Origin: Neptuniibacter halophilus
Lineage (GTDB): Bacteria > Pseudomonadota > Gammaproteobacteria > Pseudomonadales > Balneatricaceae
Assembly: GCF_030295765.1 (NCBI RefSeq)
Contig: NZ_AP027293.1
Coordinates: forward strand, 62,001-126,000
Length of the DNA stretch: 64,000 nucleotides
Direction of reading: 5' to 3'
Shown: positions 11,601 through 57,191 of the stretch, one piece after another
Position numbering within the stretch: position 1 is the stretch's first letter
How the letters are laid out: the number at the start of each line of letters is the position of its first letter
Notes under the pieces: model-generated
Told to the model about the DNA's origin: nothing
Seen by the model: the letters and a program-made list of their open reading frames with translations, nothing else
The model's database searches: none
Translations under genes and position numbers: made by a program

Positions 11601-14600
11601 TTATGACAGCCGTTGTTTCAACAGCTGCTGGGTGTGGTTGAACCGGGTTCTCCATCGCAAACGCGACCGCATGTACATAAGCTTCCTGCGCTGGACGGTC
11701 CCCGGATTCAAATGCCACGCATTCCAGGCTTTCCGGATTGATTAACAGAGTCCCCCCACCTGAAGTCAGGCCGAGATTGTCTTTGGAAATATCAACACTA
11801 TGCCAGCCCGTGTCGTTCCCCATATGGTCCACCAGCGGTTGGCTGATCTCTGCCAGGTCTGGGGAGGCCGTATTATTCTGGGCTTCCCATGGCAGCGCGT
11901 ATGTGCGATCGCGTGTTACAGCAGAGCTGGTGGGCTCAGATTCCACAACGGGCTGGGATGCTTGCACTTCCTCTATTGAGGCCGTGATTTCTTCATCGGT
12001 GTCCTCTTCTGTAACCAGAGAAGTTTTATAAGCTTCAATCGCACGCTCGATTTCTAGAGCACGTAATTCGTGTTCTGCTTCTACGTGTAGGTAAAAGTTC
12101 GTATTAAAATAATCGGTTTGTCTATCGGAGTTGTCATAGTTATAAGCATTTGCCACCGCTTCAAGAGCGTGCTTCAGGGCGCGATAATCTGCAGTCCACA
12201 TAGCAGGGGCATCCGCGTGATGGCCTTCACGATTTTCCAGATTCCACTGCGCATATTCATGGGTGATCATCGGAATGCTGTCTGGCAGTTCCTTGATTGA
12301 AATGTAAATAGAGCCATTAGATTTTCGAACACCCACCTTTACGCTGGCGGGAATCGCGCCGGTTTTCTGAAGCTCTTTAATATCACTGCGGATCCGTTTG
12401 TTGATTTCCGTAAGGCTATAGAGCTTTTCGCCATTTTCACCACTGAACAGTTTGGCCCCGTACCGAGGAAGATCAGCAGTCTGAACAACAGTTTCATAGG
12501 TCTTGAGGAAGTCTGATAACTGCGTTGCAAAGGCCTGCGCCGGGTTGTCAGATTCTTTGGAAATCTTGATGGTTTCAAAGGTGCTGTATTCGTTGTCGCG
12601 GTCGATTGGGTATACGGAAATACTGAGATGGTATTCGTCGCCTTCGAGCTTTGGAGGCGCTACGGAGGCTCTGCGGGGGCCAATAATGATTGATCCCACG
12701 GTCTCTGTTTCTGTGCCTGCCGCTTCAGTGAAACCCGGCAATAGCGCAACAACGGCCTGACCCAGCTTGAAGAGGTCTGATCCTCGGATCTCAGCTACTC
12801 TGTCTGCATGGATTTTGTCAGCGATGCGTTCAGATAAAACTTTAGCGCCTTCTCGGTCCATCCCGGTGAGTTGGCTAAGCTTTGCAAAGGTTTCGTCGTA
12901 GTCCGGGGTGTTTTTAAAGATATCGATCATCTCTGAGGTTATTTCCATTTCGGAAATCTCGTACCTCAATTCAGCCAACTCTTCTTGCAGAGCCTGTAAG
13001 CGCTCCCATTGGTAAGTGGACAAAGTATCTTCGTTGCCAACGGTCAACTGCTCTATCTCTGTTTCGATCTCAGTGCGACGAGCAAATCCCTCGAACTGTT
13101 CAAGCATAAAGGCTGCTACTGGATGAGCATGGATATTTTCTTCAACAGCCCGTTCGACCATGCGTATATTTCTTTCTTCTCCCAGGCGCTTGGCTATGAA
13201 TAAGGCTTTTTGTAATGGTTTGTCGTTATCAATACCGTTAACGATGTCGATGAAGCCTTGATCAGACAACAGACTTTTAACCGTATCTGGATGCATGTTC
13301 CATGGTTCGGCATCGTGTTCTGTAGCATCGGCAATTCTGTCCGACATGTCTTGTGCGATCTGGTGCAGTATTCCCTGATCGAGAATGATGCCACCGGCTG
13401 CAGCTTTCGTGGACAGAGTAGCCCATGTGTTATCGAGAGCTTTTCTGGCGCGGGCTATTTCAAACTGGGAAGGAGAATCAGGGCTTTGTTCAGCCAGTTC
13501 TAGCATGGAAACGCTGCGGAGATATGAGCTGATATCGGAAAATTCAATGTCAGCATGTCTCAGCTTTTGCACCAGCTCCGGCATTTCTGTTTCAAGATCA
13601 AATTTATCACTCGCAAGCGTTCTGTCTTCTTTAAACAGGGGGACTACTTCACCGGTTTGTGTGGACGGAGAAAGAATCTCCGGCTCTGCGATGGCTGTTT
13701 CTTCAGGTTCGGCTTCCTGTTCTGGCTGGTGGATAGATTCGTACTCGGAATCTACGGTGATTTGATCGTTTTCCCACCACTCGCCCGCAAAATTGAAAGT
13801 CTGACCATCGATGTCCACTACCTGGCAGTCACTATGAACGACTGGTTTACCGTCCTCAAACTCAGCGATTTGCATTCGTCCATGGCGCTTCGTCAGGACC
13901 ATATACGGAGTCCCGAGATTGTCACGGATGACAGCGGAGAAATTAATAGGTGTGTCTTGTGTGACCGGCTGTGTGCCTTTTGGTGCTGCAGGTAAGGTGG
14001 AGGCCACCTCAGGATTAGATGTGAAATTAAGCTTCAGCCATTCAGGCGCATAGTAAAGGTTGCCAGCATTAAAGCGATCCACCAGAGCGTTGAACTGCTC
14101 AATGGAATTGAAGTAGTTAACCAGTTCCGAATCTTTGATCTGTTCTCGACGCATCAAGTAAACGCCAGCAGGGTCAGGCGTTACAAAGTTTTTGATCCTT
14201 GGATAGATCAGCTCTTGGCCCTTCGGTGCTTCAACCAGACGTTCTGGTTTTACCGCGTGTGCCGGGACTTGTTCGCCGGGGTTGTACCATAGGCCGTCAG
14301 GCGTGTACTCGCCAAATTCACCGGCTATATGAGGAGGAATCAGGTCTGGGCTTTCTGGCTGCTGTTGCGGAACATCAACTGGCTCCTCAGAGATTGCAGA
14401 AGCCTCTACTTCAATCGGTTCCTCTGTTGTAACAGACTCCTCTGAACTAATTAGCTCCTGATTGGCGTTCGATTCCTCAGTAGCTTCAGGCTTAGGTACA
14501 TTGACGCTGCGAATGAGATCAGCGCGATTCGTTTTGATATACAAATCAAGCAGGGATAGGGCTTGTGGGATCTGACCTTCATTGTTAAATATGACATCCC

Positions 14601-29519: not shown

Positions 29520-32500
29520 ATGAGCATCTTTTTTTCAGCCTTAGAACGTCTACTGGATACTCTCGATCATATTGAGAATCCCGGTAGCAGCTGCAGTCTT
29601 AACCTGCCGATAGGGAATACAGGTGTCATTACTTGTAAGGATGGCAGTCTATTATCTGTCATCGAGATACGTGGTTGCCGCCGCTATGTTGGCCTGAAGG
29701 AGCATAGAGAGAATGTTGAAGCATTGGCGGAAAAGCTCACTCCATACTACAAGTCACAACAACACGACATCGGCTTTTTCTATGAGTTTGATAATGATGA
29801 GGATGTTGTTCGCAAGAAGCTGGATGAAATCTACTCGCCGGTACAGTCTGCGATTCGATCCCTTGGTCTGAAGTTTGACTCAGTACTCAAAGAAGAAAAG
29901 GATGTACTGGCGAAAGTAACACACGTTGAAACATGCTGGATGGTGATCTGGACCAATACGAAGCTCAGAACACAAGTCCCAGCTGAGGAGCGTGTCCCTG
30001 TTGCTAATGCTGCGGAATTTCGAAGCTCCAACTACATGGATATGAACGGTATCACCCATCATGCCACTCGTGGCAGCAGTCATGAGGCGATGGTCGGTGG
30101 CGTTATGACAGTTCTCAAAGAACGTGATTTTAGTGTCGTTAAACTGACCTCGGCTAATATCATTCGTGCGATCCGCAACTGTATCGATGCGCGTAAAACT
30201 GGGCAGAATTGGGAGCCACGGATGATCAGCAACCAAAAATCTGCGTTTGCTTATCTCCCGGATAACCCCAAAGATGTTGTAAAAGAGGGGGTCGCTGGTT
30301 TAATGCCGCCAAGCCTCGGTCGCCAGGTCTGGCCTTGTGAGCCCAGAACAGTAAAAGGGCACCCTGAGGTTCTTCAGGTTGGTAGCCGTATCTACAAAGT
30401 GATTGTGTTGAAGGTTCAGCCAAACGGGCCTGTTCCATTCGAGAAGCTTCTAAAAGAAGCCTCAAGTCTTGGCATTTCCTTAAGGTTCTCAGGATTGATG
30501 AAATCAGCGGGTAGCGCCATGCTGGGCCTTAAAACCATGGTGGCTGCGGCAACTACCGTGCTACCCATCCCCAGCCGTGCAAAACACCTACGAGATACGA
30601 CAGATCATCTGAAAAAATACTTGGATGAAAAACGGAAGACGGACTCTGCCATCCAAATGGCGTTCACTACCTGGGATCATGTAGACAATATAAGGGAACT
30701 GGAGTTTAAAGCTGACAAGCTACTGCAGATCATTAATGGTTGGAACCAGGCCAGTGCCTATTTCATCGTAGATGATATTCAAGAGGGCTATGTTTCAACT
30801 CTTCCGGCATATCGGAACGGTAGTGTTGCCCCAGCAGCTGTAGGGCCTTTGGAAGACATCCTGTACTGCATGCCGATTACTCGCCCTGTCATGCCCTTTA
30901 ACACTGGCGGGATGTGCTTTCGAAGTGAGGATGGTCGTCCGATGCCATTCCAACCGTTCGATTACAACGTACTTAGACACCATATTTATCTGGTAGCTGG
31001 TGAACCCGGCTACGGGAAAAGTGCGTTGATCAATAACCTGCAGGTTTCTTTGTTAAGTGCGTCAAACGATATTCCTTACATTGGTATTGCTGATGTGGGT
31101 ACTTCCTCCTTAGGCGCAATTCTAATGGCTCAATCCATTCTGCCTGAGGGTAAGAAACACTATGCAATGTATCACCGGCTACGTAATACGGAGGAACAGT
31201 CTTATAACTTTCTTGAGCAGGACTATGGCCTCAGATCTCCATTAAAAGAACACTTTGATGAGATCGTTAACCATATCGAGCTGATGATGTGTGATGACCG
31301 TACTGGCGAACTTCATACGGATATGCCGGGCTTGATCAGGGCGGTGGTTAGATTGGCGTATCGAGTCAGATCCGATGAGGGGTCAAAGGCGGATCCGGAA
31401 TATTTCAAGCGGAACCGCATGAATGATAAGCATTGGCCGATCATCTCAAAAGCGCTAGAACAGATTGGTTTAAAGCCGAATACCGATATGACATGGTGGA
31501 GCATTTTTGATGCGCTGCACGCGGAGGGCTTCTACCGGGAAGCTTCATTGGTTATGAGGTTTGTCGCTCCAACACTTCCATTGCTTGCGGCGATCGCTAC
31601 GCGGCCTGAGATTCGTTCTGAGTATCCAGGTATCTATGATAGTGGGACACCGTTGGTTGATTATTTCTCCCGCAGAATTGGGGAACTGGTGGAGGAGTAC
31701 CCGATATTTTCAGGCCACACTCAGCTGGATCTGGGGGATTCACGTATTATCTCTCTTGATCTTGAAGAGGTAGTACCGCGGGCTTCCGAAGGGGATTATT
31801 CGCTGAAGAAAAAAGGGGCGGTATTCTTTGCAACGGCTGCTCGAATACTAACTTCGCGTTTCTTCTGGAAAGAAGACCGGCTCACTGATATCCCTGAAAA
31901 ATATCACACCTATCATGAGCCGCGTATTCGCTCCATACGTCAAACCACAAACGCGCTTCAAATCGATGAGCTGCAACGCTTTGCGGGTATTGATCAGTCT
32001 GACCAGCTTTGCATCAAGATTGCTAACGAAGGTCGGAAATGGGAAATCGGTGTCATCCTTGCCTCACAGGATGTCATAGAGATGCCTAAACGACTGGTTA
32101 GTTTCTCCACAGCTCGTTTCATATGCGGATTCGAAGCTAAATCGGTGGGGAACGTAAAAGAGTATTTCAAACTCAACGATACAGAAGTAGAGCTGATTGT
32201 GCGCAAGATACGCCCGCCTTCTAAAGAGGGGGCTTGGTTGCTCCTGCAGATCGATACGGATGAGGAAAGCTATTCGCATCTGGTCAACTGCCGTATGGGG
32301 CCACAGAAGCTCTGGGGGCTATCTACACGAAACAAAGATGCCATTGTGCGGAGCAGGGTTTACAAAGAGTTCAACGATGAACGCGGCCGGGCGCTGTTGG
32401 CTCATTTGTACCCCAGTGGCTCGATTGGTGATGAATACGACTTCCGAGTGCAGAGCTTATCTGTCGATCATGATGTTGGGTTAATGGAGTTGGATGAGAT

Positions 32501-32597
32501 CAACGAGAACACCGATATCATTCAGTCTATTGGTGACTCGATAATTAAGCAGGGGCATGAAATCTTTACGAAATCTCTCAGAGAGGAAATGGCATGA
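29520..32597 (+). CDS. IcmB/DotO (TraU)-like type IV secretion ATPase
   Basis: A 1025-residue VirB4-class ATPase. Walker A is VAGEPGYGKSALIN near residue 493. Candidate acidic motifs are RIISLDLEEV near residue 742 and LQIDELQRF near residue 812. The length matches IcmB/DotO and TraU, which power assembly and substrate transfer at the cytoplasmic base of the channel. It is the last strongly conserved gene in the L-K-E-G-C-D-J-B series. Its stop overlaps the start of the next small gene by 4 bp. Confidence 0.92.
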   Translation: MSIFFSALERLLDTLDHIENPGSSCSLNLPIGNTGVITCKDGSLLSVIEIRGCRRYVGLKEHRENVEALAEKLTPYYKSQQHDIGFFYEFDNDEDVVRKKLDEIYSPVQSAIRSLGLKFDSVLKEEKDVLAKVTHVETCWMVIWTNTKLRTQVPAEERVPVANAAEFRSSNYMDMNGITHHATRGSSHEAMVGGVMTVLKERDFSVVKLTSANIIRAIRNCIDARKTGQNWEPRMISNQKSAFAYLPDNPKDVVKEGVAGLMPPSLGRQVWPCEPRTVKGHPEVLQVGSRIYKVIVLKVQPNGPVPFEKLLKEASSLGISLRFSGLMKSAGSAMLGLKTMVAAATTVLPIPSRAKHLRDTTDHLKKYLDEKRKTDSAIQMAFTTWDHVDNIRELEFKADKLLQIINGWNQASAYFIVDDIQEGYVSTLPAYRNGSVAPAAVGPLEDILYCMPITRPVMPFNTGGMCFRSEDGRPMPFQPFDYNVLRHHIYLVAGEPGYGKSALINNLQVSLLSASNDIPYIGIADVGTSSLGAILMAQSILPEGKKHYAMYHRLRNTEEQSYNFLEQDYGLRSPLKEHFDEIVNHIELMMCDDRTGELHTDMPGLIRAVVRLAYRVRSDEGSKADPEYFKRNRMNDKHWPIISKALEQIGLKPNTDMTWWSIFDALHAEGFYREASLVMRFVAPTLPLLAAIATRPEIRSEYPGIYDSGTPLVDYFSRRIGELVEEYPIFSGHTQLDLGDSRIISLDLEEVVPRASEGDYSLKKKGAVFFATAARILTSRFFWKEDRLTDIPEKYHTYHEPRIRSIRQTTNALQIDELQRFAGIDQSDQLCIKIANEGRKWEIGVILASQDVIEMPKRLVSFSTARFICGFEAKSVGNVKEYFKLNDTEVELIVRKIRPPSKEGAWLLLQIDTDEESYSHLVNCRMGPQKLWGLSTRNKDAIVRSRVYKEFNDERGRALLAHLYPSGSIGDEYDFRVQSLSVDHDVGLMELDEINENTDIIQSIGDSIIKQGHEIFTKSLREEMA

Positions 32598-35123: not shown

Positions 35124-35312
35124 TTAAATGTTTTTAATAAACTCGGATCTGTATTTATTCAATTCTGATTTGGTGACTTCTAGTTCTAATTCCAAGTGTT
35201 CTTTTTCCTCGGTTAAGTATTTTACTTCTTCAGCTAATTGCCGGTTGTTTTCTGTTTGAATCTGAATTTGGTGCTTTAAAACTTTACATTCATCACAATT
35301 AGAATTAATCAT
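35124..35312 (-). CDS. Small coiled-coil protein overlapping the recombinase gene
   Basis: A 62-residue protein with one CDEC motif near the N-terminus and a continuous coiled coil (KYLTEEKEHLELELEVTKSEL). It overlaps the recombinase stop by 8 bp on the same strand and so is probably co-translated with it. It could be an accessory factor of the recombinase, but nothing else supports this. Confidence 0.5.
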   Translation of the reverse strand: MINSNCDECKVLKHQIQIQTENNRQLAEEVKYLTEEKEHLELELEVTKSELNKYRSEFIKNI

Positions 35313-36486
35313 AATCTGGCTCCTTCATAGTTAATTGATTGACTGCTGCCCGGCGTGTACGTCCATCTCGACGGTCATATTTAGCTGTTGTATTAAATGA
35401 AGAGTGACGCAATAAACCCATGGCTGTTGTTGGATCGATACCTGGTAGGTCTAGGATATTGGAACAGTAGGTTCTTCTACCGTCATGGCAGGTAAGTTTT
35501 GATAAACCAAGGCGTTCACAATAATCGCTGAATAGAAATCCAATTCCGCTCTGGGAAATACCTACTTTGATCAGATCCCCCCGACGATTAATCCGATAGA
35601 ACAACGGCCCGGCATCTGTACCACGGTGTTCGATCCAGAGCCTGATCGCTTCCGATACTTGTTCGTTTATCTCCAAAACCACAATCTTATCGCCTTTGCC
35701 GTTTACCCTTAAAAAGCCTGGGGTTCCGTTCGGTTCAAAATCTTCCAATTCAATCTTGCAGAATTCATGTCGGCGGATACCGGCTAAAAAGGCCAGCCGA
35801 AATATGGCCCGGTCCCTTGCTGCCTTTACCGGTCGATGCAATGCCAGTTCATTCAGGTACTTCTCAAAAGCATTGGTTTCCGAAGCTTGCACCATCCTTC
35901 CAGCTAATGGGCGTTGGTTTTTGATCGGCTTTATATCTTGGATGCCTTCCCACTGCAGCGGCGTAATGATGCTGAGTTTGAAGGCTTGACGCAGCACACC
36001 CCGTATTGTGTCCAGATATCCATTCAGTGTGCTGGGGCTACGTTTCACCTTTTCGACGGTTTCTATGAGTGTGCCGTCTGCATCTTTTTTCTTAATGGGC
36101 TTGTTGTATGGCTTTGCTAATTCGTTGAGAAACGCGAGCAATCTGATTTCGGTCATCAGTGACCACTCGATGTAATGCGGATTACTGCCCGGTGCGCCGA
36201 GATGGCCAGCAATTTGTCGGAGCCGTCTTTTATGGGTAGTAAGCGATGTTCCGTGATAACGCATAAGGAACACGGTCACCGGGTTGGACTCACCAGCTGC
36301 GGTTGGCGTGGATCTGATGGGATTCACACCTTCATCAGCAACCAGTGCCTGTTCCGGGCGTTCGAAACTGGCCATGACCTGTTTAGCTTCTGCTGCGATA
36401 AGGCTGGTTGGTTTGCTGACCTGGTTCATAGCTGCTTTCAAGTTCCTATTGGTGACCTCATAAGAGTAGCATACTAACGAGATCAT
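35305..36486 (-). CDS. Tyrosine recombinase (site-specific integrase)
   Basis: A 393-residue tyrosine recombinase. The N-terminal half is a helical core-binding domain. The catalytic half shows the first Arg in FLAGIRRHEF, the HxxR box in CHDGRRTYCS, and RHSSFNTTAKYDRR with the late His/Arg and the nucleophilic Tyr. HDGRR deviates from the usual HDLRR. It may resolve plasmid multimers or integrate the element. No att site or tRNA gene was found beside it. The ATG at 36486 has GGCGAG upstream; an internal ATG at 36429 is also possible. It diverges from the KfrA-like gene. Confidence 0.88.
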   Translation of the reverse strand: MISLVCYSYEVTNRNLKAAMNQVSKPTSLIAAEAKQVMASFERPEQALVADEGVNPIRSTPTAAGESNPVTVFLMRYHGTSLTTHKRRLRQIAGHLGAPGSNPHYIEWSLMTEIRLLAFLNELAKPYNKPIKKKDADGTLIETVEKVKRSPSTLNGYLDTIRGVLRQAFKLSIITPLQWEGIQDIKPIKNQRPLAGRMVQASETNAFEKYLNELALHRPVKAARDRAIFRLAFLAGIRRHEFCKIELEDFEPNGTPGFLRVNGKGDKIVVLEINEQVSEAIRLWIEHRGTDAGPLFYRINRRGDLIKVGISQSGIGFLFSDYCERLGLSKLTCHDGRRTYCSNILDLPGIDPTTAMGLLRHSSFNTTAKYDRRDGRTRRAAVNQLTMKEPDYD

Positions 36487-36543: not shown

Positions 36544-36597
36544 AATATAGGGGGAGGGTAGGGCAGTGAGCCCAAATTTGGCATGAGGAGTGCATTT

Positions 36598-37305
36598 ATG
36601 TCTCAAGGTGGAAATAAGTCGAAGTACTGGAATGAGGCCGTTGTCGCTGCAGCCTGCACCAAGCTCAGTGAGGCCGGCATTACTCCTACAGTGAATTCAG
36701 TGCGCAGTCACTTGGCCATCGAAAAAGGCAGTGACGCGACCGTTCAACGCTATATCCGACTCTGGAGAGAAAACCGGATCAACGATGATTCTGAGGCTGA
36801 TACGCCGGAGCCATTGTTAACTGCACTTAACAGTCTTTGGCACCAAGCATTAGAGGTGGCCAATAAACAACTGGAATCCGATAGAGAGTTGTTAGCTAAA
36901 GATCAGAAGGCTTTTATCGCTGAAGCGGTTGCCCTTGAAGCTTCTTTGAACGATGCAGAACAGACGGCGAGGAATGCATTGGCTGAAGCAGAGGAGATCC
37001 GCCACTCTGAAATGGAACTCAAGTCTTTACTGGAGACCCAGACCGGAATGCTCACTAAGGCCAAGCAACAGATGAATGAGCAGGCTTTAGAGATAAAGAG
37101 CTTGAGTACACAGCTAGCCACGGAAAAAGAAAAGTCTCAGATTTTGAATGCTCAGCTGGAACAGCAGGCTAAAACGGCCACCCAGGTTCAGAATATGTTC
37201 CGACATGATTACGAGAAGAAGTTGGAGTTCATTAAACAGGAGCTGGGGACTCACCTGGACAAGAAAGAATTTGCTGCGATCTTCAACTCTGAATTATTCA
37301 AATAG
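36598..37305 (+). CDS. KfrA-like DNA-binding coiled-coil protein
   Basis: About 235 residues. The first 60 form the KfrA N-terminal DNA-binding domain (KYWNEAVVAAACTKL, then VRSHLAIEKGSDATVQRYI). The rest is a long Glu/Gln/Ala coiled coil. This is the plasmid replication/stability family called KfrA, which binds DNA, autoregulates and can form filaments that aid plasmid maintenance. The start at 36598 is chosen because AGGAG lies seven bases upstream; the ATG at 36583 contains that SD. The palindrome upstream is its probable operator. Confidence 0.82.
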   Translation: MSQGGNKSKYWNEAVVAAACTKLSEAGITPTVNSVRSHLAIEKGSDATVQRYIRLWRENRINDDSEADTPEPLLTALNSLWHQALEVANKQLESDRELLAKDQKAFIAEAVALEASLNDAEQTARNALAEAEEIRHSEMELKSLLETQTGMLTKAKQQMNEQALEIKSLSTQLATEKEKSQILNAQLEQQAKTATQVQNMFRHDYEKKLEFIKQELGTHLDKKEFAAIFNSELFK

Positions 37306-37769: not shown

Positions 37770-37873
37770 TGACCGAGATGCGCGACAAGCCCCGTACTTC
37801 TAGTGCGGGGAAGGATAGCGCGGAACGCAAAGCGTTCCTTGTATAACTTGCAGTGTACTGTATATTTATACAT

Positions 37874-38935
37874 ATGAAGCTTACTAAGACTTTGAAAGTT
37901 CGCGTCAGAGACAAGCACTGCAACCTACTTAACCGCATGGCCTGTAGTGTGAATTTCTGCTGGAACTACATCAACGAACTTAGTCACCGATCTATCAAAG
38001 AGCGTGGCGTATTTCTGTCTGCCTATGATATACAGAAATATACGCAGGGTGCTCATAAAGAGCTGGGACTGCACAGTCACACCGTACAGTGTATTGGTAA
38101 AGAGTATGCTACCCGCCGCAAGCAGTTTAAGAAGAGCAAGCTGAACTGGCGTAAGTCCCTTGGCGTTCGGCGCTCACTGGGCTGGATTCCGATCAACACC
38201 GGCATGGCGAAGTGGAAAAACGGGCAGGTGTACCACAACGGTCATTATTTCAAAGTTTGGGACAGTTACGGGCTCAACCAGTATAAATTCCGAACCGCCT
38301 CTTTCTCGGAGGATGCGCGTGGCCGCTGGTACTTCAATGTTGTTGTTGAAGTCGAAGCTGAAGTTCCAGCCGGGCAGAATCAGATCGGTATTGATCTGGG
38401 CCTGAAGGACACGGCTACGTGCTCCGATGGCACGAAGCTCGAAGCCGGACGCTTCTACCGCGATCAGGAACCGAAGCTTGCCGTCGCTCAACGGGCCGGT
38501 AAGAAAAAACGCGTCAAAGCGATCCACGCCAAGATAGCGAACCGGCGCAAGGACGCTTTACATAAGTTTTCCCGCCAACTGGTGAACCGTTCCGGTGAAA
38601 TCTACGTTGGCAACGTAAAATCATCCTCGTTAGCCAAAACCAAAATGGCAAAGTCCGTGCTAGACGCTGGCTGGGCCATACTAAAAACAATGCTGGAATA
38701 TAAATGCGATGGCGCAGGCATTGTTTTTAAAGAGGTTAACGAGTCGTACACCTCCCAAGCCTGTTCGAGCTGTGGTAGTTTGCCCGATTCGAGGCCGAAA
38801 GGTATCGCAGGACTTGGAATAAGAGAATGGACTTGCAGTGAGTGTGGTGTCACTCACGACCGCGATGTGAACGCGGCCAAGAACATTCTTGCGGTCGGGC
38901 ATGGCCGTCCTATAGAGGGAATCCCCGTGCTTTAG
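37874..38935 (+). CDS. tnpB: TnpB RNA-guided nuclease with altered RuvC-II residue
   Basis: A 353-residue TnpB. The N-terminus (MKLTKTLKVRVRDKH) supports the ATG at 37874 over the GTG at 37853. RuvC-I Asp is in IGIDLGLKD near residue 174. A four-Cys zinc ribbon (CSSCG, CSECG) and RuvC-III Asp in HDRDVNAAKN near residue 330 are present. The place where canonical TnpBs have Glu (VIEDL) reads YVGNVKSS here, while FKEVNESYTSQ further on offers acidic residues near 287-290. TnpB proteins with such a rearranged catalytic Glu are known. The gene ends within the right-end hairpin. Confidence 0.88.
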   Translation: MKLTKTLKVRVRDKHCNLLNRMACSVNFCWNYINELSHRSIKERGVFLSAYDIQKYTQGAHKELGLHSHTVQCIGKEYATRRKQFKKSKLNWRKSLGVRRSLGWIPINTGMAKWKNGQVYHNGHYFKVWDSYGLNQYKFRTASFSEDARGRWYFNVVVEVEAEVPAGQNQIGIDLGLKDTATCSDGTKLEAGRFYRDQEPKLAVAQRAGKKKRVKAIHAKIANRRKDALHKFSRQLVNRSGEIYVGNVKSSSLAKTKMAKSVLDAGWAILKTMLEYKCDGAGIVFKEVNESYTSQACSSCGSLPDSRPKGIAGLGIREWTCSECGVTHDRDVNAAKNILAVGHGRPIEGIPVL

Positions 38936-40104: not shown

Positions 40105-40977
40105 TCAAGCTATGTATTGGTGAGCACGGATAGACGGAAGAAACACTTCAGGCGAAATGGTCTGGTCCGATCGCTGGGTGTTTGTACGGGTTCCCCCTTT
40201 ATTCAGCACGGGCATGATGTTGCCAGTGGCGCAAAGAATTGGCACTGGAGCATGCACCTGCCGCCGATCCATGGTTTTGACACCATCTTTAATAGTCGGG
40301 TGAAAAAGAGTGGCTTTAAGGGTTGGGCTCTGTGCTTTCTGAACGATAGCTAAGTTATTACTACTTGGAATTTTAGAAAGAATCTCTCTATCAATGTGAG
40401 CTTGTTCAGAACTGAGTTTGTCCAGCATTTTGGCTGCTTGCTCAATGGTAATCCGGCGAACACTGTTCCCTTGCTTTTCAAGCCAAGAAATACGATGTGG
40501 AGCCTTCTCAACGACTGGAATCTTACGTGTTGCCTGCTTCACACAAAGCCGACCAATACCTGCATGGCGCAGCAGACTGCGAATATGCTCCTGCTGATTT
40601 AAAACCTCTCTTAGAGAGGTGTGCTTGCTGAGCCGCGTGCGTAAATCTTTAAAGTGTTCAGCAAGAACGGCCTTGGTTTCATTGATTTCGAGCGCTTTCG
40701 CCAGACTGGATGGCCCCACCAACAAAACACCTTTCTGTTTTTTGGTTTCATTGCCTTGCTGGCCCACCTGGTACTCGATCCCGGTAATCGCCTTGATCGC
40801 TTGCTGCAGGTATTCAGGGTAATCATTTACGGCGTAGAAACATCCCTTTTTCTCATCTTCATCTGGGTTCATACCCGGCATCCAAATCGAGTGGGTTTCA
40901 TGCAATAGCGCCTGTTCGAGTTCGGTCTGCTGTGCAATCAGATCTTTTAAGCTTAAGAGTAAGTCACCGGATATCAT
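40105..40977 (-). CDS. Tus-like replication terminus-binding protein
   Basis: A 290-residue protein whose pattern follows E. coli Tus over much of its length. KGVLLVGPSSLAKAL resembles the Tus GVLCYQVDNLSQAAL region. RHAGIGRLCVKQATRKIPVV followed by PHRISWLEKQ resembles RHLPGLITLNAYRTLTVL and PATLRFGWANK. The C-terminal HAPVPILCATGN and FLPSIRAHQYIA resemble CPTPLIALIN and IPRLHLYVAD. Length is close to the 309 residues of Tus. Tus halts replication forks at Ter sites in one direction. SD AGGAG precedes the ATG. Two Ter-like sequences lie upstream, as TerB lies upstream of tus in E. coli. The call is from remembered sequence. Confidence 0.7.
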   Translation of the reverse strand: MISGDLLLSLKDLIAQQTELEQALLHETHSIWMPGMNPDEDEKKGCFYAVNDYPEYLQQAIKAITGIEYQVGQQGNETKKQKGVLLVGPSSLAKALEINETKAVLAEHFKDLRTRLSKHTSLREVLNQQEHIRSLLRHAGIGRLCVKQATRKIPVVEKAPHRISWLEKQGNSVRRITIEQAAKMLDKLSSEQAHIDREILSKIPSSNNLAIVQKAQSPTLKATLFHPTIKDGVKTMDRRQVHAPVPILCATGNIMPVLNKGGTRTNTQRSDQTISPEVFLPSIRAHQYIA

Positions 40978-41081
40978 CGATCACTCCTATACATCACTGG
41001 AAGTAATAGGGGCGCGGTGAGCTTGGAAGTGTGCCAGGTGGCGCAGGGTAAATATCATACCGATCACAGCTTTAACCGCTT

Positions 41082-41100
41082 GAGTACGCTGTATGATGAG
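41082..41100 (+). promoter_or_regulatory. Ter-like site 1 upstream of the Tus-like gene
   Basis: GAGTACGCTGTATGATGAG matches the E. coli Ter pattern AGTATGTTGTAACTAAAG at AGTA, the G at the sixth position and TGTA. It is the left arm of an inverted repeat whose second copy lies 54 bp away. Fork-blocking function is inference. Confidence 0.45.
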
Positions 41101-41154
41101 CCCCAGCCCGGAGGACGTTTCCACCATCTTGCTGGGATGGGTCGAAACCTGAGA

Positions 41155-41173
41155 CTCATGATACAGCGTACTC
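41155..41173 (-). promoter_or_regulatory. Ter-like site 2, inverted copy
   Basis: On the minus strand this reads GAGTACGCTGTATCATGAG, identical to site 1 except for one base. The inverted arrangement, the position in the promoter region of a tus-like gene and the shared AGTAnGnTGTA core support a protein-binding site, either for autoregulation or for fork arrest. Confidence 0.45.
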
Positions 41174-41303
41174 GCCCTCATAGGGCATAATTCTAGCAGT
41201 TTTTAATATGCTGTTTAAGCATAATATTTTATATATTGAGAGAGGCTATGCCTCTTGGAGGGATGTTGAGTATTTACTGTTTGATACTACACCACAACCC
41301 TCA

Positions 41304-42440
41304 TTAATTTATTTGGTCTCTCCGTTGATCCAGAAGCACCCTTTTAACCCGTTGCACTGTTCGCGTAGATGCACCTGTCATGGTAGCGGTATCACGTATT
41401 GAGAGCCCATCTGCCAGCGCTTTAGCTATTAGCTGGTTAGTCGGTTTCGATAAGTACCGGTCTATGCTTTCTGCACTCCCTTTCGGGCGACCTAAAACGG
41501 CTCCCATTTTCTTAGCTTTCTTTACCCCCTGACGAACCGCGACTAAGCGCCGTTCTTCTTTTCTCCACCAATCACGCATGATCTTCTCCTCGGTAGCAGT
41601 GAAGACCCTTTGGGGGATACGCTTAAGATCACTGATTATTTTTTTGGCCTCGGCCGCGTCAAAGGAAAAGTATTCTGTCAAAGTTCCAACTGGGACATTG
41701 TTGGCTGAGTACCGGTATTTGAAATAGCGCTCACAGTGTCCTCTATGCTCTTTGAACACCAGTGGTTTAATAATGATCGAACTATAGAATTGCTGCAGAT
41801 CTCGCTTGATTTCAGGCAGGCGATCGGCAAGAGGGCGCGAGGTCAGGCCGATTTTATAAAGCTCCTCATCATCCGCTGTAATTGATAAGAAATAGAGGTG
41901 CTGACCAGCAAGCCGGCGCAGCTGCGCCCTATAAATACTGAGAGCTACTTTGTCGGTCTCTAACTGATAATAGTCTGCTAACTCCACCAACCGGCGATGA
42001 GCATCTAATAACAGTTCTGGATGCAGCTGACTAAACAGGTTGAGGCTCAACCCACCAACGGGGATCTTTCCTCGTTTAGTAAATTCAAATGGCATACTCC
42101 GAAAAATGTTTTCTTGAAGCATACCCAGTTTGACAAGGGATTCAGGGGCTCTGGCCAACCCTTTGCTGCCTAGTTCTGATTGCTTCCACAGTGTTTGCAG
42201 GGTTTCAAACTCATCATGTGACAGCGACAGTGTGAAGTCATCAAAGCCCGGTAGCGATCGGAGAGATGCCACACCGTTACAACTTTCTTCAAGGTGGGAA
42301 AAATGGTGCTCTTTAATGTTCCCCTTTTTTGCAACAAGCAGGCCCTGACAGAAGGGGCATTGAAGATCGGATTTACCGCGATCACAATCCTCGATCCCGA
42401 TATAGTCTCCATTTTGAGTTATTCCGACAGTGAGGTTCAT
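41304..42440 (-). CDS. Zinc-finger, GIY-YIG-like and resolvase-HTH fusion protein
   Basis: A 378-residue three-part protein. The N-terminus has CPFCQ near residue 28 and HHFSHLEESC near residue 45, a CoiA-like zinc site. The middle contains HLYFLSITADDEELYKIGLT near residue 180, with a later CERYFKYRY, the pattern of T5orf172/GIY-YIG-type nuclease domains. The C-terminus has GRPKGSAESIDRY and then LADGLSIRDTATMTGASTRT, a serine-resolvase type HTH. The combination suggests a DNA-binding nuclease or a regulator built from nuclease parts. The ATG at 42440 is preceded by a long inverted repeat. Confidence 0.65.
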   Translation of the reverse strand: MNLTVGITQNGDYIGIEDCDRGKSDLQCPFCQGLLVAKKGNIKEHHFSHLEESCNGVASLRSLPGFDDFTLSLSHDEFETLQTLWKQSELGSKGLARAPESLVKLGMLQENIFRSMPFEFTKRGKIPVGGLSLNLFSQLHPELLLDAHRRLVELADYYQLETDKVALSIYRAQLRRLAGQHLYFLSITADDEELYKIGLTSRPLADRLPEIKRDLQQFYSSIIIKPLVFKEHRGHCERYFKYRYSANNVPVGTLTEYFSFDAAEAKKIISDLKRIPQRVFTATEEKIMRDWWRKEERRLVAVRQGVKKAKKMGAVLGRPKGSAESIDRYLSKPTNQLIAKALADGLSIRDTATMTGASTRTVQRVKRVLLDQRRDQIN

Positions 42441-46460: not shown

Positions 46461-48038
46461 ATGGATAAGAATTTAGCATTTGCCAATCACGGCGAAGTCA
46501 TCAAGATGCTTTACAAAGCCTTTGGCGTACTCCCTAGAAAAAATGCCCTTGGTGATGACGGACTGGATGACACCGCCAAAAAGAGGGTCCAACAGGTACT
46601 GAATCGATTGGCGAAAGAGGAAGGTAAACTTCAGGGTAACCTGGCCGGGGCCCATAAAAGACTCGCCTATATCCTCGCCGGCTATTTCCCCCTTCCGATT
46701 ATGGAACCTATCATTGAGGTGCTGAACGACCTGCTCGATGGGTATGCTCATTTTGTCAGTAATGAAGGCACCTTTCTGAACAGAGAGCAGTCGTTACGCT
46801 ATGCTATCTCAATAAAAGCAGTGCCAATAGCTGTGGATTCGCTTTATTTTCATCTCCACTGGTTTAGCCTTGTCGCAGTGGATCTGGACATGCCTGACGA
46901 TCCCTACTGGTTTCTGCCGTCATTCGAAGAGGGCAAGGATGGCCGAACAACCATCACCTACCCATTAGGGAAAGCTCTGGAATGGGCTTACCAACTGTGT
47001 GAGACATCGCAAACCCAGTTCCATTACCCCGGTAAATCAGCTCAAACAGACTCCCCCGAGCTGGTACAGAACCTTGAAAATGCGATTAACTGGAAAAAAG
47101 GTCGTGCCCTTCCCGCGTTACCAGCGTTAAGAAAAAATCTATTACTTTCTTTTACAAAAATGGACGAAGCCGGCAGGCCGGTCCCCCCCCAAAAAATAAC
47201 GGCGATCTTCACTGTCGTTGTGATTGCTCGCGTTACGACCTATCTGGCAACGGAAATTAACAAGCACTTCGGCACAGCGTACCTGCAGGAACTCTGCCAG
47301 CAGTTCCGAACCTATGCTGACTGGCGAAGAATAGAGACCGACGAATTTTTACGCCAAGTGCTCCCGGTGGTGACCGCCGTACCTGGAGAGGAACAGGCAC
47401 GCTGGCAACATGCCTGCATGCACCATCACCGGTTTCTAAAAAAGAAACAAATGGATGCCGCCAAAGAGTACATCGCGCACTGCAACTCCACCGGGCAACT
47501 GCCACCAGAGGACGCAGTGACGAAGCTCGCTAACCGTCTGGGCGATTATGCGGTGCGTGTTCTCCACGATCTAAACCAGCGCCAACAGGGCTATCACCCG
47601 CCAGCTGAATTTATAGAAATGCTCGGCCTTGGTATGGAACTCAAGAAGGCCGCCAAGACCGAATGGAAGCAAATAGATGACTATGCCGCCACACTGGCAG
47701 AGCATGGCCAAGAAAACGTGCTCAACTGGCTGGAGCAATGGATCAGGGGAGCCTATCACCACCACCGGGAACAATGGGACAATGCCCTGCCCTACTACCG
47801 CAAGGCATTTAAGTTAGCTAAATACCGCGCCGGGGGAGAGCAACATAATCTGGTTCGGCAATACCTTACCGCAGCGGCCAAGACTCAGAAAAAAGTAGAT
47901 TTTAAACAAGGCGTTGAATGGGCACGCATTATGGGAATAAAGGTTTTTTGGCTTCCAGCTGACGAAGAGCTTACTGACGAGAACATTGCCATGGCTATGG
48001 CCGTTTTTGAGGAAGTCACTTTCGCCAAGCCGTTGTGA
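46461..48038 (+). CDS. Unknown 525-residue helical protein
   Basis: A long soluble protein that I do not recognise, with GGAGAG upstream of the ATG. It seems almost entirely helical. The C-terminal 120 residues (WIRGAYHHHREQWDNALPYY, then KAFKLAKY) resemble a TPR-like pair. There are no membrane segments. It is co-directional with the small protein upstream and next to the origin-like segment, so a Rep role was considered, but no winged-helix, primase or HUH motif is visible. Confidence 0.55.
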   Translation: MDKNLAFANHGEVIKMLYKAFGVLPRKNALGDDGLDDTAKKRVQQVLNRLAKEEGKLQGNLAGAHKRLAYILAGYFPLPIMEPIIEVLNDLLDGYAHFVSNEGTFLNREQSLRYAISIKAVPIAVDSLYFHLHWFSLVAVDLDMPDDPYWFLPSFEEGKDGRTTITYPLGKALEWAYQLCETSQTQFHYPGKSAQTDSPELVQNLENAINWKKGRALPALPALRKNLLLSFTKMDEAGRPVPPQKITAIFTVVVIARVTTYLATEINKHFGTAYLQELCQQFRTYADWRRIETDEFLRQVLPVVTAVPGEEQARWQHACMHHHRFLKKKQMDAAKEYIAHCNSTGQLPPEDAVTKLANRLGDYAVRVLHDLNQRQQGYHPPAEFIEMLGLGMELKKAAKTEWKQIDDYAATLAEHGQENVLNWLEQWIRGAYHHHREQWDNALPYYRKAFKLAKYRAGGEQHNLVRQYLTAAAKTQKKVDFKQGVEWARIMGIKVFWLPADEELTDENIAMAMAVFEEVTFAKPL

Positions 48039-48073
48039 TCCCAACCCCCAGCTATTGTCGGGTGCCCAGCGAT

Positions 48074-48096
48074 GGGCACAACGGTATAAATTATTT
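48074..48096 (+). promoter_or_regulatory. Fourth copy of the AACGGTATAAAT element
   Basis: GGGCACAACGGTATAAATTA repeats the element found three times in the 45.6-46.1 kb gap. TATAAA could be a -10 box of a promoter for the leader of the downstream EAL gene. Confidence 0.45.
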
Positions 48097-48198
48097 ACCA
48101 GACGGTTCTTTTTTATGCCACCGTTTTACAATACTATTTTAGACTCATTGGGTATTGTCCTTGTTGGGCTCAATGTTCTAAGAGCGAATAGGAAGTTC

Positions 48199-48225
48199 GG
48201 CCTCTCACTGAGAGGCCTTTTTTTT
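48199..48225 (+). terminator. Intrinsic terminator upstream of the EAL/HDOD gene
   Basis: Perfect stem GGCCTCTC/GAGAGGCC, loop ACT, followed by eight T residues. It ends 12 bp before the EAL/HDOD start codon and some 160 bp after the 525-residue gene. It either ends that transcript or acts as an attenuator in the leader of the EAL gene. Confidence 0.85.
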
Positions 48226-48237
48226 GGGGGTTCCATC

Positions 48238-49512
48238 ATGCACGTTGCAGATCTTTGTTTGGATGAGCTTCAGCATTCTTTGCCGACCGACCGATTTCAA
48301 ATAGGACGGCAGGCCATCATAGACCGCAATATGGAAACTTACGGCTTTGAATTGCTGTTCAGACCTATTGATCGCCTCTCCCGTGACATATCAGGTGAAG
48401 CAGCCACTTCCCAGGTCATCGCCAGCAGCATGACAGACGCGGATTTACCCACCCTACGCAACCTAAATAAACCCCTCTTCATCAATATGACCAAAGAGCA
48501 TTTGATGAACCTCCATCTAATCGGCCTACCACCTGAAATGGTGATCTACGAGATATTGGAAGACATCATCGTAGACGATCGGCTGGTGGACCGTATCAAG
48601 ATGCAACGCGGCATGGGTTACCGGTTCGCTTTGGATGATTTCTCAATGAATAAGCACAACCGGCGACTGATACCGCTGGTGTCCTACGTAAAACTGGATG
48701 TGCTGGCCTTATCTCCCTTAGAGCTGGAGCAGCATGTCCGGACCATCAAGCAGTACGGTCCCTCCTATGTGAAGCTGGTGGCAGAAAAGGTCGAAACCTA
48801 CGAACAGTTCCTGAAATGCCAGGAGATGGGATTTGATTACTTTCAGGGGTTCCTGTTCTCTAAGCCTGATCTGATTACTGGATTTGCGTTGTCGCCAGTG
48901 CAGAACAGTGTCTACCGGGTACAACATTGCCTGAACAATCCGGAGTGCAGCTATCAGGAGATCGCAGCCCTGTTATCTGAAGATCCCGCCTTGGTCTATA
49001 AACTTCTGCGGTTTATCGGTAACACGCACAAGGTTATGCCTGCTGACCAGCTCACTTCACTACTGGAAGGCATTGGCAAAAATAAGCTTCGAGTAATGAT
49101 GTCCTTGTTTGCCCACGGCCAATTACGCACTGGCCCAGCCGAGATCGCCCGACAAGCTCTACTGAAAGCACACCAATCTCGCCAGGTAGCGATCGATCAT
49201 AAGCTGGCAAAGCCTGAACAGTATTTCTTTGCCGGTCTCATCTCTCATTTGGATGACTTTACCCAGCGCCCGATCCGCAGCCTGCTCTCCCAATTACCCA
49301 TCTCCCGGCAAATAAAAGAAGCCGTCACAAACGGCACGGGAATTATCGGGGAGGTATTGGATGCTGTTAGCTCCTCAACCCACTTTGATCCTATTGGGAT
49401 GAGCCTTCCTGTAAATGACTATACAGAAACGGTAACCCTCTCCCAGGTGCAATGCGAAACTGCGGTAGACCTGATCATAGAGGGCTTAGGGGAACGATTA
49501 GACAAGCGTTAG
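48238..49512 (+). CDS. EAL and HDOD domain signalling protein (YuxH type)
   Basis: About 424 residues from the ATG at 48238. Upstream in-frame ATGs (48115, 47986) are rejected because an intrinsic terminator and the end of the previous gene lie between. The EAL half is degenerate: ELLFRP in place of EAL, LDDFSMN in place of DDFG, then VAEKVET and FQGFLFSKP. The HDOD half follows from about residue 210. YuxH-type proteins bind partners and usually lack c-di-GMP hydrolysis. Such genes are usually chromosomal, so it may have been picked up from a host. Confidence 0.82.
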   Translation: MHVADLCLDELQHSLPTDRFQIGRQAIIDRNMETYGFELLFRPIDRLSRDISGEAATSQVIASSMTDADLPTLRNLNKPLFINMTKEHLMNLHLIGLPPEMVIYEILEDIIVDDRLVDRIKMQRGMGYRFALDDFSMNKHNRRLIPLVSYVKLDVLALSPLELEQHVRTIKQYGPSYVKLVAEKVETYEQFLKCQEMGFDYFQGFLFSKPDLITGFALSPVQNSVYRVQHCLNNPECSYQEIAALLSEDPALVYKLLRFIGNTHKVMPADQLTSLLEGIGKNKLRVMMSLFAHGQLRTGPAEIARQALLKAHQSRQVAIDHKLAKPEQYFFAGLISHLDDFTQRPIRSLLSQLPISRQIKEAVTNGTGIIGEVLDAVSSSTHFDPIGMSLPVNDYTETVTLSQVQCETAVDLIIEGLGERLDKR

Positions 49513-55657: not shown

Positions 55658-56500
55658 ATGTTTCTGGATCCACGTATACAATTGATTGATCAATACCTCT
55701 ACTTTTGGGGAGCTGTAGGGCGTTCTGAGTTGATTGAGCACTTTGATGTGAGTACAGCGACTTCAAGCAGAATTTTGAAGCAGTACAGAGAAGCCTATCC
55801 AGAAAACATGTTTTACAAGGTGGATAAGCGAGCGTATATCGCTACGGATAGTTTTAAGCCACTGGTAGATCATTCACCTGAAGTTGCACTTGAGCTTTTA
55901 GCTTATGGGCATGTGCAACAGAAAATAAACAGACAAACCTACGGCCCTGAAGGGGTTCCTGCTTTCATTGCAAAACTTGATGCTGAAAGTGTTGCAGCCA
56001 TCACGAGAGCGATTACTAATAGGTATGAAGTTCAGATTGAATACGCTTCAGGCACATCGGGTATTTCAAAACGATGGGTAACTCCGCATTCCGTTTTCCG
56101 TAACGGTTCTAAATGGTACTTCAGAGCTTTTTGCTACAAGAACAATGGCTTTAGGAACTTCATTTTTGGGCGAGTTATTAACCCACTAAGCGAACGTTCG
56201 CTGCAGGTTAAAGCCTCTAAAGAACAGGACATAGAGTGGTTAACGCAAGTAAATTTAACGATCGCTCCTCATAGCAAAAGCTCCTATCCAGAAACCTTAC
56301 GTGTCGATTTGGGCTTATCAGATGAGCCCGTACGCAACATACAAACCAATTCAGCTCTGGCCGGATTTATTTTGAATGATCTTCGAGTTGATTGTTCATT
56401 GGGGGGTACATTAGATCCAATGGAATTTAATTTACAGTTGATGAATAGAGCTGAAGTTATGGAATGCCCTTCAATGCAATTGGCCCCTGGCTTCAATTAG
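55658..56500 (+). CDS. WYL-domain transcriptional regulator (BrxR/CapW-like)
   Basis: A 280-residue protein with an N-terminal winged helix (AVGRSELIEHFDVSTATSSR), a central WYL domain (WVTPHSVFRNGSKWYFRAFC near residue 135) and a C-terminal WCX-like part. BrxR and CapW proteins have this layout and repress phage-defence operons until a signal binds the WYL pocket. It is divergent from jetABCD, so it probably controls the Wadjet operon and itself through the repeats between them. Confidence 0.85.
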   Translation: MFLDPRIQLIDQYLYFWGAVGRSELIEHFDVSTATSSRILKQYREAYPENMFYKVDKRAYIATDSFKPLVDHSPEVALELLAYGHVQQKINRQTYGPEGVPAFIAKLDAESVAAITRAITNRYEVQIEYASGTSGISKRWVTPHSVFRNGSKWYFRAFCYKNNGFRNFIFGRVINPLSERSLQVKASKEQDIEWLTQVNLTIAPHSKSSYPETLRVDLGLSDEPVRNIQTNSALAGFILNDLRVDCSLGGTLDPMEFNLQLMNRAEVMECPSMQLAPGFN

Positions 56501-57087
56501 GCTAAAGAAGACCGCACCAAATATTTATCTAATACTTTTTGGGTGGTGAGGGCTTTATATGAATCCAAAGATAACGAAAATAACTGTTGCACAATCTCAG
56601 GATACACAGAGAAGGCTAAAGGTCTTCTTTTGACACTTTTACGACATGCTGATCCAGACCATGGATCGGATTTACGCAGCCGAGTGTGGATTGCATGCAC
56701 GCGGTTCGCCAGAGGTTTAATGATGATTTGGCCCTGCCGCATCTCCGCATGGAACCTTTCGGTATATTGCGGTATGCAGTCATTCAGAAGTTTCTGCCCA
56801 CCGAACTCCACCAGCGCTTCGAGTGGCTTATTGGTTCTCTGCCGGTTATAGGTCCGTGAGTACACCTGCTGGGCACCCGCTTGGTCTGGAACGATTGTAA
56901 ATCCATCCAAAAGCCTGTCATGGGCAATGGTTGTTAGTCGCTGGCCTGGCTCAAACCCCATCAGGCGCAGAAAGTTAGAACTGATCCGGACTTTTCGATT
57001 TCCGTTGGCATGATTCAAAGCCAGATTTTTTGTCACGATTTCTGGTTTATGAGCAGAGAGGCCGGTTTGTGGCATTACATATGACAT
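56497..57087 (-). CDS. Accessory protein, possibly DNA- or toxin-related
   Basis: About 196 residues from the ATG at 57087, which has GAGGA upstream; the frame is open to 57144. The N-terminal part (NRKVRISSNFLRLMGFEPGQ) resembles an AbrB/SymE-type swapped hairpin, with LTTIAHDRLLDGFTIVP next. The rest is basic and helical. The promoter carries the GTAC-type operator shared with three other loci. Its stop overlaps the end of the WYL gene on the other strand by 4 bp. The function is unknown. Confidence 0.6.
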   Translation of the reverse strand: MSYVMPQTGLSAHKPEIVTKNLALNHANGNRKVRISSNFLRLMGFEPGQRLTTIAHDRLLDGFTIVPDQAGAQQVYSRTYNRQRTNKPLEALVEFGGQKLLNDCIPQYTERFHAEMRQGQIIIKPLANRVHAIHTRLRKSDPWSGSACRKSVKRRPLAFSVYPEIVQQLFSLSLDSYKALTTQKVLDKYLVRSSLA

Positions 57088-57137
57088 AGCTTGTTCCTCG
57101 TAGGCACCCGGTAGGACAGGTTTGATATACCAACATC

Positions 57138-57154
57138 GTACCATTTAACAGTAC
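57138..57154 (-). promoter_or_regulatory. Shared operator, copy A
   Basis: GTACTGTTAAATGGTAC (minus strand) lies between a TTTACA/TTACAT -35-like box and the -10 region of the 57087 gene. It is part of a longer palindrome with arms CATCGTAC/GTACGATG. The leader ends in CCTACGAGG, as in the other copies. Confidence 0.65.
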
Positions 57155-57191
57155 GATGTAAAGTTAAAATCTTCAGCATCACTATTGAATT

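Follow-up and report, generated by a model that had tools for sequence, protein, structure and literature searches.

A candidate self-contained Tus/Ter terminus, set off-centre by an inverted pair of Ter-like sites, on a 172-kb plasmid

Does a plasmid that encodes its own Tus-type protein also fix its own replication terminus? The question is raised by a locus on plasmid C2 (172,193 bp), the second contig of a two-contig assembly (4.11 Mb in total, with a chromosome of 3.94 Mb), of which we analysed a stretch of 64,000 nucleotides, hereafter the window (C2:62001-126000; coordinates given without a prefix are those of the window, and positions in kb those of the replicon). Our analysis makes it probable that C2 carries a self-contained Tus/Ter terminus, at which the plasmid's own Tus-type terminator fixes an off-centre end point of replication at an inverted pair of Ter-like sites.

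The tus-like gene (40105..40977, minus strand) encodes a 290-residue protein which has the Tus fold over its whole length and shares it with E. coli Tus across 253 residues, at ∼11% identity in the structural alignment. The original prediction of a Tus homologue thus stands as far as the fold is concerned, and the HHpred-type comparison that it had called for likewise came out in its favor, with a 60-sequence family profile matching the E. coli Tus sequence at E=1.6e-5 (probability 79%). This profile comprises the window's own translation and 59 of 121 proteins among the matches listed; the family search found 283 proteins, 120 of them among the matches listed. The prediction fails for direct profile searches: the 290-residue protein gave no match in Pfam or NCBIfam at E<=0.1, and the Tus profile PF05472 found nothing in the host genome at E<=0.001. 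PF05472 does match three of 18 family members at E<=1 (best 3.4e-7), none of which is the window protein, and since its match to PF05472 is absent we classify the latter as a Tus-fold homologue linked through its relatives, and not as a member of PF05472. Tus was likewise not found in sequence searches of the PDB with the protein itself or with an 18-sequence profile, a six-sequence profile remained below significance against E. coli Tus, and E. coli Tus was absent from the hmmsearch output for the 60-sequence profile. In E. coli Tus, the pocket that locks onto cytosine-6 is formed by I79, F140, H144, G149 and L150. In the profile alignment G149 and L150 correspond to G140 and I141, whereas F140 and H144, which align near a gap with Q129 and R133, are not clearly conserved in the plasmid protein. 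A viral collection contained neither relatives of the protein nor copies of the 19-bp site described below.

Chromosomes of the host's relatives also commonly carry Tus-like genes (40 of 96 genomes gave a match), and the host itself has one at G000:C1:3593542-3594249 (locus L042). Because PF05472 detects none in the host genome, counts of resident tus genes based on this profile may be too low. From the 41 other places with a match we fetched 33 loci, of which 32 were readable and one (L022) lacked a tblastn match; at 17 of the 32 kin loci the upstream reading frame contains a motif that, judged by eye, resembles the end of a PilZ-domain gene.

Upstream of tus lie two Ter-like sites, site 1 (41082..41100, plus strand; GAGTACGCTGTATGATGAG) and site 2 (41155..41173, minus strand; GAGTACGCTGTATCATGAG), which agree in 18 of 19 bases, are 54 bp apart and together occupy the stretch from 105 to 196 bp upstream of the tus ATG at 40977. 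The two inverted 19-bp copies claimed by the original prediction are thus present as described, and both carry the AGTAnGnTGTA core on which its comparison with E. coli Ter had been based; site 2 is, moreover, oriented to tus like TerB. An equally good inverted pair is expected by chance ∼1e-5 times within the 325-bp intergenic stretch, and exact AGTACGCTGTAT occurs in the whole 4.11-Mb genome at these two sites only. The window contains four copies of the pattern AGTANGNTGTA, where 0.24 are expected and none of 100 shuffles gives as many, and the 172,193-bp plasmid has no further exact match; the search of the full plasmid suggested earlier thus adds two matches to AGTAnGnTGTA, one at 30963..30973 (minus strand; AGTACGTTGTA), within the ORF 29520-32597, and one at 57150..57160 (plus strand; AGTACGATGTA), just beyond the ORF 56497-57144. 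Each is weak alone, and as ∼0.6 such matches are expected on the plasmid from the chromosomal density, we retain them as possible, and not as certain, parts of the system. On the 3.94-Mb chromosome AGTANGNTGTA occurs 14 times. Genome-wide it is not enriched, with 18 occurrences against 17 for a reversed control pattern, and the chromosomal Tus homologue therefore probably uses other sites; use of the plasmid site by the chromosome was dropped as a candidate on these counts.

It is then of key importance where replication of C2 begins and ends. Iteron-like repeats (10 copies of a 22-bp and six copies of a 33-bp unit) occupy C2:155138-156378 (L040:9138-10378) and adjoin the gene for a 599-residue RctB-like protein, which matches RctB weakly in Pfam (E=4.5e-4, below cut-off) and in the PDB (E=0.007) and is 25% identical to a named RctB-domain initiator of a Teredinibacter plasmid. 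Plasmid-encoded DnaG-type primase, ParAB and RdgC genes lie nearby. A fourfold-site skew model corrected for gene strand fits an origin at 152-162 kb and one at 12-16 kb equally well, and we chose the former because the initiator and the iterons are located there. From this origin, the Ter-like pair is ∼53 kb away in one direction and ∼120 kb in the other.

The composition of the plasmid switches at the pair. The raw cumulative GC skew is maximal at C2:102,419 (window 40,419), 0.7 kb from the Ter-like sites, and when the origin is set to 155 kb the skew step falls at 102 kb (bootstrap 95% interval 95-109 kb), so that the two arms measure ∼120 and ∼53 kb. Skew amounts to +0.049 from the origin to the point opposite (69.6 kb), +0.050 from there to the Ter-like pair, and -0.054 from the pair back to the origin; only 0.1% of bootstraps place the step at 80 kb or earlier. 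A terminus opposite the origin was rejected. The gene-strand-corrected fourfold-site model favors a terminus at 96-100 kb, 3-7 kb from the pair, and rates 102 kb as 2.4 scaled log-likelihood units worse. These results support the role in ending plasmid replication that had been proposed for the locus; nothing that we saw supports the accompanying proposal that transfer is separated from vegetative replication.

Based on this anatomy, we consider it probable that the plasmid Tus recognizes the inverted pair of Ter-like sites in its leader and thereby creates a fixed replication terminus. Forks would depart both ways from the iteron origin (C2:155.1-156.4 kb); the leftward fork would reach the pair first, after ∼53 kb, and would be held there until the rightward fork arrives after ∼120 kb, so that replication would finish there rather than at the point opposite the origin.

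Both the coincidence of skew terminus and tus and the core of the site recur on other plasmids. Out of 24 plasmid records, 12 were fetched around tus, with all 12 searched whole for patterns and eight read whole; the family profile matched the proteins of all 12 plasmids tested (E<=3e-18). Skew was judged on 11 replicons, namely C2, eight further tus plasmids and two draft contigs sharing the backbone of C2 (32 and 48 of 146 C2 ORFs matched). In five of these the skew terminus, as fitted, coincides with tus: C2, NZ_CP130702 (0.14 kb away), pHP-187 (2.4 kb), G043:C17 (0.4 kb) and Amphritea contig C4 (1.3 kb). It lies away from tus in the other six, NZ_CP011054, NZ_CP019295, NZ_CP095734, CP098529, NZ_AP025467 and pMAQU01. 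Coincidence within 3% of the half-circle, a limit set after the data had been seen, has P=1e-5 if the 11 replicons are independent, P=0.002 with one replicon per backbone (three of nine), and P=0.02 when C2 is left out as well (two of eight). Among the five replicons in support are two draft contigs whose circularity is unproven, with the Amphritea tus at a contig end, and the NZ_CP130702 terminus ranges from 195.0 to 199.7 kb depending on the method (bootstrap -16 to +13 kb). For pHP-187, the skew maximum is at 117.0-117.1 kb by raw and step methods and at 100.6 kb after detrending, and the minimum (173.5-174 kb) falls between parAB and the replication initiator. Among the replicons without coincidence, NZ_CP095734 shows no significant skew step (p 0.135), the CP098529 terminus shifts between 79.5 and 56 kb as the block size changes, and the terminus interval of pMAQU01 is broad (155-196 kb), its raw maximum lying elsewhere than its Ter-like pair. 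The skew terminus of NZ_CP011054 (∼90 kb) is near a homologue of the window's tyrosine recombinase (93 kb) and away from tus (115 kb).

Inverted pairs of the core GT[AG][CT]G[CT]TGT (at least 16 of 22 bases identical, within 6 kb) were found in three of nine plasmids, C2 and the two Marinobacter tus plasmids pHP-187 and pMAQU01, the latter two carrying the same GTACGyTGT core as C2 and all three having the order (+)(-). In pHP-187 (NC_017507) the sites are at 117145(+) and 117299(-) (span 117145-117314; TGTTGTACGTTGTCCC), that is, at the raw and fitted skew maximum, 1.5 kb from tus and upstream of an integrase. In pMAQU01 (NC_008738) nearly the same site occurs at 161609(+) and 164438(-), inside the terminus interval and 48 kb from tus. 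A rare 14-mer shared by these two plasmids, TTGTACGTTGTCCC, forms inverted pairs on both; it is found once each in two of 390 genomes of the order. Shuffled patterns yielded pairs in at least two of the eight other plasmids in 10 of 400 trials and, by a looser count, in at least three of nine plasmids in 3 of 300. Such pairs are absent from NZ_CP130702, CP098529, NZ_CP011054, NZ_CP095734, NZ_AP025467 and NZ_CP019295 and from the draft contigs G043:C17 and Amphritea C4. AGTAnGnTGTA itself was found around tus at none of 12 related plasmid loci and at none of the 32 readable kin loci, the host's own chromosome included; an 11-kb Amphritea locus has neither this core nor repeats upstream of tus, and the short repeats seen at some kin and plasmid tus loci do not carry it.

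One may ask whether the sites merely control tus. A promoter-like element, TAAACA-16-TAGAAT with extended TG, is located by consensus match at 41190..41217 (minus strand), one of two such elements in the region against 0.7 expected; both Ter-like sites would consequently be part of the tus leader. Repression by blocking of RNA polymerase is then a likely candidate mechanism, and the same binding that is proposed to hold forks probably represses tus in this way, as at E. coli TerB/tus. The pair might hence be an autoregulatory operator and nothing else, with Tus repressing its own promoter while forks pass. The position of the sites between promoter-like element and ATG fits this alternative, as do passages of PMC10331603 that assign an autoregulatory role to a ter site in the promoter region of E. 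coli tus. We consider it unlikely, however, as it leaves the off-centre skew terminus at the pair unaccounted for, and as the pairs on the Marinobacter plasmids lie away from the tus leader, the one of pHP-187 still at its skew maximum.

The neighborhood of tus brings up a second alternative. A XerC-like tyrosine recombinase (35305..36486, minus strand) and a KfrA-type DNA-binding protein (36583..37305, plus strand) were identified by family search, with an IS605-type OrfB/TnpB-like gene (37853-38935) between the KfrA gene and tus; upstream of tus lies a gene (41304..42440, minus strand) with CoiA_N and MUG113/T5orf172 above cut-off and a helix-turn-helix-like stretch below it. Homologues of the recombinase adjoin tus in NZ_CP130702 and lie 7.6 kb from it in G043:C17, and in NZ_CP011054 the gene immediately upstream of tus encodes KfrA. 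This recurrence suggests that the genes form a terminus module, perhaps with dimer resolution as one of its functions. The window also encodes an EAL plus HDOD domain protein (47986-49512) and a 3929-residue ORF (5656-17445) with homologous stretches on G043:C17 and pMAQU01 (there named helicase-related), and three 403-residue ORFs at C2:6314, 24508 and 138284 have near-identical starts and are transposase-like by eye, two of them flanking accessory genes on the long arm.

The terminus could then be set without Tus, either by a recombinase acting at a dimer-resolution (dif-like) site or by collision of forks on arms made unequal by insertions, and the recombinases beside or near tus in several replicons, the NZ_CP011054 terminus close to the integrase homologue, and the transposase-like ORFs and accessory genes of C2's long arm all point in this direction. 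Yet skew holds at +0.050 for 33 kb beyond the point opposite the origin, removal of ∼30 kb of accessory DNA would by our estimate still leave arms of ∼90 versus 53 kb, and the best dif-like match on the plasmid has 10 mismatches of 28 against a dif consensus and was dropped as a candidate; we thus regard a terminus independent of Tus as very unlikely. Finally, that the repeats serve as operator for a different regulator (the product of 41304..42440, with its helix-turn-helix-like stretch, or the nearby KfrA) while Tus binds elsewhere would agree with the lack of AGTAnGnTGTA beside tus on all 12 plasmid relatives, but is highly improbable given the fit of site 2 to the Ter core in its E. coli orientation relative to tus and the inverted pairs on the two Marinobacter tus plasmids, rarely matched by shuffled patterns.

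Returning to the proposed Tus-dependent terminus, the order of the sites calls for comment. In E. coli, TerB lies immediately ahead of tus on the plus strand, TerA is on the minus strand, and they face clockwise and counter-clockwise forks, respectively, from which it follows that the AGTA end is the blocking end; passages of PMC8707476 are consistent with this assignment. Under E. coli polarity, site 1 (AGTA end left) would block rightward forks, and site 2 (AGTA end right) leftward forks, that is, those coming along the short arm. The inner pair of C2 is ordered (+)(-), the reverse of the (-)(+) pair of R6K, while the weak outer matches at 30963(-) and 57150(+) together have the order of an E. 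coli-type trap. With the pair reversed relative to R6K, both forks would, if E. coli polarity simply applied, halt outside the pair and leave a short stretch unreplicated between them, measuring 79 bp from core to core in C2, 153 bp in pHP-187 and 2.8 kb in pMAQU01. This presents a mechanistic puzzle: either polarity is inverted in this branch of Tus proteins, or the barrier is leaky, or another helicase finishes replication. We suggest, tentatively and as a somewhat doubtful extension, that a divergent plasmid Tus branch sets an off-centre terminus by means of a reversed (+)(-) pair, acting as a trap of inverted polarity or as a two-faced barrier that halts both forks before they meet and needs another activity for completion. 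The original prediction was right in kind, and is extended here; the reversal of the pair relative to the R6K terminus had escaped it.

Comparison with known systems places the C2 locus as follows. With the E. coli fork trap (PF05472) it shares (i) the Tus fold, (ii) a Ter-like site upstream of tus and on its strand, and (iii) the AGTAnGnTGTA core, whereas the protein is plasmid-borne, ∼11% identical and missed by PF05472, and the two close sites are not in trap order. R6K uses host Tus, and its record lists no tus among 44 features (the feature table being incomplete by its own account). TerR1 and TerR2 of R6K are, like the C2 sites, two close inverted Ter sites on a plasmid (spacing 95 bp), but in their order forks may enter and not leave. 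Plasmid Ter sites are also described, in passages of PMC10331603, for R1 (terRL and terRR); those are located at the origin and enforce one-way replication, whereas the C2 sites lie 53 kb from the origin, between two arms of opposite skew.

That tus occurs on plasmids and second chromosomes is already documented in PMC6549158 and PMC7858055; the former, which found tus with the PF05472 profile that misses the C2 protein, also proposes a domestication of chromosomal tus from plasmids. For the chromid of Pseudoalteromonas (P. tunicata), PMC7858055 reports that no E. coli-type ter could be found close to where the ter region was expected, and the review PMC10331603 puts a question mark on ter there; C2, by comparison, has candidate cognate sites at its skew terminus. 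Searches of open-access literature listings brought up no paper naming sites for such tus plasmids, and as far as these searches reach, candidate cognate sites at an off-centre terminus are new.

C2 and the two Marinobacter plasmids provide concrete candidate sites, whereas for the chromid-borne Tus the passages of PMC7858055 and PMC10331603 name no Ter sites. C2 is a natural plasmid with arms of ∼53 and ∼120 kb, and the reversed order of its sites bears on whether the lock polarity of E. coli is universal. If the reading of this order given above is true, the (+)(-) pair would under either option constitute a fork barrier whose mode of action differs from that of the E. coli lock.
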